Of a DNA stretch of 42,355 bases, positions 14,815-34,825 are shown in pieces. The translations under genes and the position numbers were made by a program. Each line of letters starts with the position of its first letter. Position 1 is the stretch's first letter. The DNA comes from Methanomassiliicoccaceae archaeon. GTDB lineage: Archaea; Thermoplasmatota; Thermoplasmata; Methanomassiliicoccales; Methanomethylophilaceae. Below the pieces are notes generated by a model. That model made no database searches. It saw only the letters and a program-made list of their open reading frames with translations, and was not told the DNA's origin. Location of the stretch: contig PWNH01000080.1 in the NCBI GenBank assembly GCA_003557905.1, positions 1-42,355 on the forward strand, read 5' to 3'.

Positions 14815-15369
14815 TCACAATGCCTTCTCGCGGATGATCTTGTTCATCCGGATAAGACGTGGGCCTTTCTCATCGATAATTAATCCGCCGATGACCCTTT
14901 TCTGACTCTTTATACTCAGACCATGTCTCTCATACATCATCTGTGCATTCTCACCACCGTCAATGAGCTCGCTGTCACTGGTGTACAATCTAAGGAACCT
15001 CGCCCCCCGGTTGGTCGCCTCCTCTATGGCTTTATTCAGTAGTGTAGCCCCCAGCCCCCTGCCCCGTTCCGATGGGCGGACCACATACCAACTCAACCAC
15101 AGGGCCTCATCACGGTCCTTGCGGATCGAGTATAGGCCGCTGATACCGGAAACTGAACCGTCATCGGATATTGCGACCCAGAAATCCAACAGGTCCACAC
15201 CCGAAAGCCGAGAGAATATCCGGTAGCTTAGACCGCCCTTCCGGGAATATAGGCGGAAACTCAGCCTCTCCATCGGAGTCTGACCGATGAACACAGAATC
15301 CACCAGTTCCTTAGCCCTAGGCACCATGTCCTTCTCCAGCCTAACAAGCTGTGGCGCTTTCCCTTCCAT
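14815..15369 (-). CDS. GNAT-family N-acetyltransferase
   Basis: 'VRPSERGRGLGATLLNKAIEEATNRGARFLRLYTSDSE'; start at MEGKAPQ preferred because the upstream extension overlaps a structured RNA candidate. Confidence 0.8.
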   Translation of the reverse strand: MEGKAPQLVRLEKDMVPRAKELVDSVFIGQTPMERLSFRLYSRKGGLSYRIFSRLSGVDLLDFWVAISDDGSVSGISGLYSIRKDRDEALWLSWYVVRPSERGRGLGATLLNKAIEEATNRGARFLRLYTSDSELIDGGENAQMMYERHGLSIKSQKRVIGGLIIDEKGPRLIRMNKIIREKAL

Positions 15370-15453
15370 CCAAATACAATGGTCGGAAGGGATGTTATTC
15401 TTTGCCTTTGTGGGACGGTATTGTTTAAATAAGCGCGGACAAGTGTACATCAT

Positions 15454-15661
15454 GTCCGTGAAGCAAGCGGGGATGACCTGATGATTCCCCCGGTGACACG
15501 GACGTACAGAGCCTCGTTTGGTCCCTGTTGTAGCAGCGACGATCGTTCGCGCCATTACCTCAAGGCAACCCCGAGGCCCAACATACAACCCTCGACCGGG
15601 TCAGTGTCCCGAGGGTGGCGCTTGCCACAACCGTGAAAGGACTTGTTAAGGTCGAGGGACA
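15454..15661 (+). ncRNA. Candidate multi-hairpin H/ACA guide RNA
   Basis: Hairpin 1 GTCCGTG(15454-15460)/CACGGAC(15497-15503) with upper stem GGGGA/TCCCC, UGA..GA loop and ACA at 15506; hairpin 3 CCCTCGACC(15589-15597)/GGTCGAGGG(15650-15658) with ACA at 15659; hairpin 2 GCCTCG/CGAGGC with ACA at 15581; TATA-like TTTAAATA at 15424-15431. Confidence 0.6.
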
Positions 15662-15819
15662 CCCCATTTTCAACCATCCCCCGTCCACTCATTATATTCT
15701 CCGAACCATTTCTCTGCAGCATGGAGTGCAGCCACCGTGACCATGGCGGGAGAAGATGGTCACTTTGTCTGAAACAAAATGGAAAGAGCCAAGGCGTCAG
15801 GGATTGTGACCTTGATAGG

Positions 15820-16344
15820 ATGGAATACTGTGAGGAACGCACCGTGGATGAGGGCGTGCGTGTTTTGACGGATTCGTTCATACGGACGAAATGCAACCCA
15901 TGCGCCTATTGCGGTGGCAATCATGTAAACTTGAAGAGACACTTGGTATGCGAACGCATTTTTTATGCCGAAGAGATAATCAGAGGTGCCGAGTCCGAGT
16001 TGCCTGAATGCACACCGAGATTGCAGATTTCGACATGGCCACATATAAGGGGCATGGTGCTGGACAGGGACTCGCACTCATGCCTTGGTTGCGGTGTAGA
16101 CCTTTCTGCCCGACCGGAATGGATGAGGGAGGTCCACCATATATTGCCGCGGATATTGGGGGGAACGGACGACCCGCGTAACCTCAAGACGTTATGCAAC
16201 GCATGTCATCGGCCTTTGACCGAGATCCTGATGTTGAAGATGGAACCGAAGGATGAGACGGAGAGGATGGAGGCTGACCTTAAACGCAAGTTCCGCAATG
16301 GCCGCGATCTTTTACGTTCATTGAGCGCCGATGGCGGTACCTGA
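15820..16344 (+). CDS. HNH endonuclease-domain protein with N-terminal Cys/His cluster
   Basis: 'CLGCGVDLSARPEWMREVHHILPRILGGTDDPRNLKTLCNACH' HNH core; N-term 'CNPCAYCGGNHVNLKRHLVC'; ATG at 15820 in frame. Confidence 0.82.
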   Translation: MEYCEERTVDEGVRVLTDSFIRTKCNPCAYCGGNHVNLKRHLVCERIFYAEEIIRGAESELPECTPRLQISTWPHIRGMVLDRDSHSCLGCGVDLSARPEWMREVHHILPRILGGTDDPRNLKTLCNACHRPLTEILMLKMEPKDETERMEADLKRKFRNGRDLLRSLSADGGT

Positions 16345-17211: not shown

Positions 17212-17892
17212 TCATAGATTCAATGACAGACGGCGTAGCCAATCCTCGGCCTCCTTCCAGCGGGGATGCATCCTCTCCTTGCGACGGAACTCCTCATCGT
17301 GGGCCTGACCGTCCAGGGAAAGACCGTTGGCCAGATGCAGCAGCTCATGATAGAGTACGTATTCTGTCACGAACTCAGGAACGACAACATCATCAAGCGC
17401 TGAGCTGACCGCCACTACCTTCATCAGGACGCTGCAGTATCCAACCCGCCTCAGGTTGGGTCTTGAGGTCCATGACAAGAAGGCCTCCTCATCCCTCTCC
17501 ACCAGGCCGGCCTGCACCAAACGCTCGTAGGAATCCTGGAGGTCGTAATGCCTGCCCTTGCAGTTGCGTGACAGGTTTCGGCTGCGGCGCAGATAGACAG
17601 GCTGCTTGTTCTTCACAAAATCCTGTGATGTCATCCAATCCCGGAGTTCATCAGGGTAGTTCGACCTCTTACCCTTGGCTATGCGCATGAAGAGCACCCT
17701 CGCCAGCCCCTCCATCATCACCTCGTCGGCATCCATAAGGTAGTCGGAGACCTGGAACTCGGCCCATCCGGCAGACCTCTGCCATCGGACCTTGAACTCC
17801 TTGAAGGGCGTGAACTCCGCCCTCACTGAACTGTACCCGAAATCCCTGCCCGCCTTCTGGAATGCATCCTGTAGACAAATCTCACTGCTCAT
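17212..17892 (-). CDS. Putative zinc metallopeptidase (SprT/YgjP-like)
   Basis: 'YVLYHELLHLANGLSLDGQAHDEEFRRKE' HExxH...H motif. Confidence 0.75.
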   Translation of the reverse strand: MSSEICLQDAFQKAGRDFGYSSVRAEFTPFKEFKVRWQRSAGWAEFQVSDYLMDADEVMMEGLARVLFMRIAKGKRSNYPDELRDWMTSQDFVKNKQPVYLRRSRNLSRNCKGRHYDLQDSYERLVQAGLVERDEEAFLSWTSRPNLRRVGYCSVLMKVVAVSSALDDVVVPEFVTEYVLYHELLHLANGLSLDGQAHDEEFRRKERMHPRWKEAEDWLRRLSLNL

Positions 17893-34726: not shown

Positions 34727-34825
34727 GCAGGTGTTATCTAGTCTGGTTAGGATTTTGGCCTTCCATATCCCCACAAGGGATGAGGTCAGCCAACAGCCCG
34801 GGTTCGAATCCCGGCACCTGCACCA
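34727..34825 (+). tRNA. tRNA-Gly(UCC) with 22-nt intron and encoded CCA
   Basis: Acceptor GCAGGTG/CACCTGC, D-arm ATCT..GGAT with AGTCTGGTTA loop, anticodon stem TTGGC/GCCAA with spliced loop CTTCCAA, T-arm CCGGG TTCGAAT CCCGG, discriminator A, CCA at 34823-34825; intron 34766-34787. Confidence 0.93.

Follow-up and report, generated by a model that had tools for sequence, protein, structure and literature searches.

The window considered here, a 42,355-nucleotide contig (PWNH01000080.1 of assembly GCA_003557905.1), belongs to an archaeon of the family Methanomethylophilaceae, the nearest named relatives of which are sediment metagenome-assembled genomes with isolate names that we take to denote soda lakes. 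Between two divergently transcribed genes lies, on the plus strand, a gene for an RNA made up of three hairpins, for which an earlier note, written from the sequence alone, had proposed the layout of an unannotated H/ACA guide RNA. H/ACA RNAs of the HgcG type tell the enzyme which ribosomal uridines to convert to pseudouridine. We have very little doubt that the RNA is the Methanomassiliicoccales orthologue of HgcG (Pab40/Pf7/Afu4), with hairpin 3 directed at U1915 and hairpin 2 at U2586 of 23S ribosomal RNA (rRNA; E. coli numbering). It is a real gene, and a divergent, newly recognised member of an already known family that standard annotation has missed.

Each hairpin consists of a lower stem, a pocket and an upper stem bearing a K-turn or K-loop motif, followed by the triplet ACA, and direct reading places stems, pockets and ACA boxes where the earlier note had put them (Table 1). 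The distances from upper stem to ACA, counted directly, all fall within the 14-16-nucleotide rule for H/ACA RNAs. The folding energy of the whole region has a z-score of -3.3 against dinucleotide shuffles, and those of hairpins 1, 2 and 3 are -3.56, -3.76 and -3.74, with 1, 0 and 0 of 200 shuffles, respectively, folding as well. The three-hairpin H/ACA layout proposed in the earlier note is supported. The predicted L7Ae sites are present as sequence motifs that the earlier note had also picked out, namely the GAG/UGA-type K-turn of hairpin 3 (36 of 36 homologues) and the GA..UGA K-loop-like motif of hairpin 1 (32 of 36). In most relatives, the upper stem of hairpin 3 is longer by two pairs, G.U and U.G, which in the window genome are G.U and U-U. 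With this extension, the true 3' guide is GUUAA, 14 nucleotides from ACA, and the pocket TTGTTAA of the earlier note, which had set the upper stem 16 nucleotides from ACA, has to be shortened.

Table 1. Position and structural elements of the HgcG RNA gene in the window
Feature	Position	Strand	Basis or remark
TATA-box-like TTTAAATA	15424..15431	+	putative promoter of HgcG RNA
HgcG (Pab40-type) three-hairpin H/ACA guide RNA gene	15454..15661	+	RF00064 match, fold, orthologues, covariation
Hairpin 1	15454..15508	+	K-loop-like TGA..TGA; pockets AAGCAAGC / CGGTGA
Hairpin 1 lower stem	GTCCGTG 15454-15460 / CACGGAC 15497-15503	+	direct reading
Hairpin 1 upper stem	GGGGA 15469-15473 / TCCCC 15486-15490	+	direct reading
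Hairpin 1 ACA	15506-15508	+	15 nt past upper stem
Hairpin 2	15511..15583	+	predicted target 23S U2586 (E. coli numbering)
Hairpin 2 lower stem	GCCTCG 15511-15516 / CGAGGC 15572-15577	+	direct reading
Hairpin 2 guides	5' GGTC 15520-15523; 3' AACCC 15567-15571	+	target fit
Hairpin 2 ACA	15581-15583	+	14 nt past upper stem
Hairpin 3	15589..15661	+	K-turn GAG/TGA; predicted target 23S U1915
Hairpin 3 lower stem	CCCTCGACC 15589-15597 / GGTCGAGGG 15650-15658	+	direct reading
Hairpin 3 guides	5' GGGTCA 15598-15603; 3' GTTAA 15645-15649	+	covariation, target fit
Hairpin 3 ACA	15659-15661	+	14 nt past upper stem

Compensatory changes, which had been suggested as a check, were sought in 36 copies of the RNA that were oriented and aligned. 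Within hairpin 3, 12 of 15 pairs have changed on both sides; the covariation score is reached by none of 500 shuffles and falls when the partner strand is slid. This score comes from a structure-guided alignment, which favours its own structure, but a plain alignment gave a nearly equal result. When the whole RNA was aligned with MAFFT alone, RNAalifold recovered the upper stems of hairpins 1 and 2 and not the lower stems, because MAFFT had shifted the 3' arms, a fault that the structure-guided alignment mended for hairpin 3. Compensatory pairs are also present in the upper stem of hairpin 2. Of 400 genomes of the class, 293 match a covariance model restricted to hairpin 3, with E values down to 1e-20 and almost invariably a single copy per genome. 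In one of the families of the class (f22), the complete genomes listed, often assembled as a single contig, gave no match, which suggests that HgcG has been lost or has diverged strongly in that family.

At the gathering threshold, Rfam gave no match in the RNA region, and to this extent the RNA was indeed unannotated, although it belongs to an existing family. In a permissive scan, RF00064 (HgcG) is matched at positions 15400-15666 with 43.6 bits and, on a 321-base stretch, an E value of 5.5e-11; the alignment runs through model positions 1-276, the full model, and takes in all three hairpins in order. No other kind of RNA matches better, and since RF00064 is itself an H/ACA guide family, the match does not count against the earlier note. 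The RF00064 model matches 34 of 151 related genomes (E <= 0.01), of which one genome of the same class, G139, exceeds with 78.7 the gathering score of 77 bits, itself a curation cut-off and not a biological feature; this copy ties the divergent ones to the HgcG family. HgcG is the same RNA as Pab40 of Pyrococcus abyssi and Pf7 of P. furiosus, a proven H/ACA guide (PMC4652768, PMC6138745, PMC2584109).

Targets were read in seven 23S genes, two from congeners and five from other relatives. The hairpin 3 guides GGGUCA and GUUA(A) pair, in the helix 69 loop, with UAAC-U-A-UGACCC (GAAC in the two congeners), the sole site in all seven genes at which they form at least 3+3 Watson-Crick pairs. With 6+3 or 6+4 pairs there, and with shuffled guides finding an equally good site in 0-6 of 2000 trials, U1915 is the predicted target. 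The formula put forward previously, UUAACAA-U-N-ACUGACCC, was out of register with this site. Hairpins Pab40.3, Pf7.3 and Af4.3 have been assigned to the same helix 69 position, L2016 in P. abyssi and 1915 in E. coli (PMC4652768), as has HP2 of Haloferax (PMC2584109). Helix 69 of the congeners G001 and G005 reads GGAAC instead of GUAAC, the U equivalent to E. coli 1911 having become G (23S L063, L061).

Hairpin 2 had been regarded as the weaker of the hairpins, a judgement that its guides and a clear candidate target do not bear out: the spacing from AACCC to ACA is exactly 14 nucleotides and the guides are conserved across the order. These guides, GGUC and AACCC, pair with GGGUU-U-A-GACC of the peptidyl-transferase ring (4+5 pairs) and, in the three 23S genes with the site intact, pick out U2586, a number that allows for one inserted base in the E. 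coli copy used for numbering. The same target, U2586, has been predicted for HP1 of Haloferax, which is homologous to Pf7 stem II, and the site carries a pseudouridine in Haloarcula (PMC2584109).

A pattern search located the 23S U2586 site in 76 genomes of the order, and hairpin 2 was read in those with positions for both the RNA and the site. Where the site is intact (U-A-GACC), the 3' guide AACC is kept in 27 of 27 and GGUC in 26 of 27, the single exception, G148, falling outside the order; where the site reads U-A-AAAC, both guides are lost (27/27). Replacement of the target uridine by C, seen in three genomes, goes with loss of the guides in two and their retention in G095. According to minimum-energy folds, a local hairpin occupies the former 5' pocket strand in 16 of the 27 U-A-AAAC genomes versus none of the 27 with an intact site. 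Inspection of several Methanomethylophilaceae copies (L201-L221) likewise found this strand often to be a small self-complementary CCC..GGG hairpin, which apparently closes the guide pocket. In a 23S tree of seven relatives, the sampled guide-less genomes fall in one clade, so the pattern probably reflects a single guide loss followed by site changes among the descendants and not many independent events. By itself the coupling is weak evidence; it becomes strong only in combination with the Haloferax assignment, which is independent of it. On balance, we lean towards the view that the hairpin 2 guide and its target are kept or lost together in this order, that a large clade of Methanomethylophilaceae has dismantled the pocket, with the site changing from U-A-GACC to U-A-AAAC or C-A-GACC, and that pseudouridine 2586 would differ between close relatives.

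The guide pockets of hairpin 1 vary even between congeners. A scan of the relatives' 23S and 16S rRNA with free pocket limits brought out no site that stands apart, and the target formula offered earlier for this hairpin found no convincing counterpart there. The best candidate for the window RNA, CUGG-U-G-GCUUGCU at about E. coli 2488, scored 10.4 against 9.4 for the next; it is not claimed because it requires a bulged G and a 16-nucleotide spacing, and because its uridine varies (G009 has A). A site of the P. abyssi L2588 type, the target of Pab40.1, was absent from the best matches in the relatives' 23S, but L2588 targeting is a feature of Pab40.1 and not one common to all HgcG members. Hairpin 1 may serve a site specific to this lineage, or it may have no target at all.

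In operation, HgcG would be transcribed from its own TATA promoter, the K-turn or K-loop of each hairpin would bind L7Ae, and its lower stem and ACA would bind Cbf5 and Nop10, as in established H/ACA biology. Pairing of hairpin 3 with the helix 69 loop would then lead to pseudouridine at U1915, and pairing of hairpin 2 with the peptidyl-transferase ring to modification of U2586. Both Cbf5 and Nop10 are encoded in the window genome. The TATA-like element noted at the outset has counterparts in most homologues: a stretch of six or more bases, all of them A or T, lies upstream in 34 of 36, beginning 25-31 bases ahead of hairpin 1 in 30 of 36, and it is plausibly the promoter of the RNA itself. 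The P. abyssi transcript begins at its first H/ACA motif (PMC4652768), which fits the position of the element here.

Several points weigh against this account. The RF00064 score of the window RNA lies below the curated threshold. Neither 23S nor 16S was found in the window's own assembly, which is why relatives' rRNA was used, and GGAAC in G001 and G005 costs hairpin 3 one pair on its 3' guide side, leaving just three there. The loss of the hairpin 2 guides may have been a single event. Gar1 (PF04410) was not detected in the 86%-complete assembly (G000), which may reflect incompleteness or divergence. Finally, for this organism, transcription, ribonucleoprotein assembly and the modification of U1915 and U2586 are what we infer from the structure, covariation and homology of the RNA and from the guide-target fit in relatives.

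Of the other explanations, that of a structured 5' untranslated region, a terminator or a chance fold can be given almost no credence. The position of the RNA between divergently transcribed genes and the ease with which GC-rich intergenic DNA folds would suit such an origin, but z-scores together with covariation rule out a chance fold, and compensatory changes, ACA spacing, K-turn residues and a TATA box conserved across families, in an RNA found in most genomes of the class, all speak for a guide. It is less easy to dismiss, although still unlikely, that hairpin 3 alone guides in this lineage, hairpins 1 and 2 surviving as relics that bind protein. The pockets of hairpin 1 are not conserved, and a large clade within the same family no longer has the hairpin 2 pocket; against this, the window's genus retains both hairpin 2 guides at the exact distance from ACA, and congeners retain the target site.

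A genuine H/ACA guide RNA that is no orthologue of HgcG, its likeness stemming from shared architecture and a shared rRNA target, is very improbable. The sub-threshold score and the lack of a hairpin 1 target in common with Pab40.1 would be expected of such an RNA, and H/ACA motifs serving one site would converge on equal guides. Shared architecture does not, however, readily account for a match to three ordered hairpins over the full RF00064 model, for the above-threshold copy in G139, or for the order of targets, hairpin 2 to U2586 and hairpin 3 to U1915, which equals the HP1/HP2 arrangement of Haloferax. Orthology with HgcG remains by far the better explanation.

Two reading frames on the minus strand, an open reading frame at 15555-15896 and the N-terminal extension of that at 14815-15588, overlap the RNA. 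Both look spurious, as had been supposed: a conserved RNA occupies the stretch, and the GNAT domain lies beyond the ATG at 15369, most likely the true start of the GNAT gene. A scan of the named genomes for the GNAT protein returned no match. About 1.5 kb from the RNA lies a gene for a YgjP-like metallopeptidase (17215-17892, minus strand; weak Pfam match), and similar-looking peptide ends adjoin the RNA in two other genera (L060, L056), suggesting an old gene order. Elsewhere in the window, a tRNA at 34727-34825 (plus strand), left unnamed by ARAGORN, looks by eye like a tRNA-Gly(UCC) whose CCA is encoded and which carries an intron after position 37. A 5S rRNA occupies the contig end (42256-42355, plus strand) with no 23S ahead of it within the window; 16S and 23S of the congener G001 are also about 50 kb apart.

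Annotation of HgcG has been nearly confined to where the Rfam threshold permits it, yet most genomes of the class contain the RNA; of the 34 relatives matched by the model, the threshold misses all but one. The present alignment suffices for rebuilding the family. The joint record of guide and target amounts to a natural experiment, in which the helix 69 pseudouridine would be kept and that at U2586, beside the end of the P-site tRNA, could be lost.

Hairpin order is the same in the window RNA and in HgcG/Pab40/Pf7 of the Thermococcales; both have three H/ACA hairpins, each followed by ACA, and in both hairpin 3 is directed at one helix 69 uridine, L2016 of P. abyssi. The window RNA differs in a sequence diverged to 43.6 bits, in hairpin 1 guides that do not fit the L2588 target of Pab40.1, and in hairpin 2, which fits U2586 whereas Pab40.2 is assigned L1932. 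Archaeoglobus Afu4 (Af4.3), likened here by its described target, also has a hairpin guiding the helix 69 position, but is known from another class. The targets predicted for HP1 and HP2 of Haloferax volcanii, homologues of Pf7 stems II and III, are the same two uridines, U2586 (H. marismortui 2621) and U1915 (1956); hairpin 1 is absent from Haloferax, whereas the window RNA has all three hairpins side by side.
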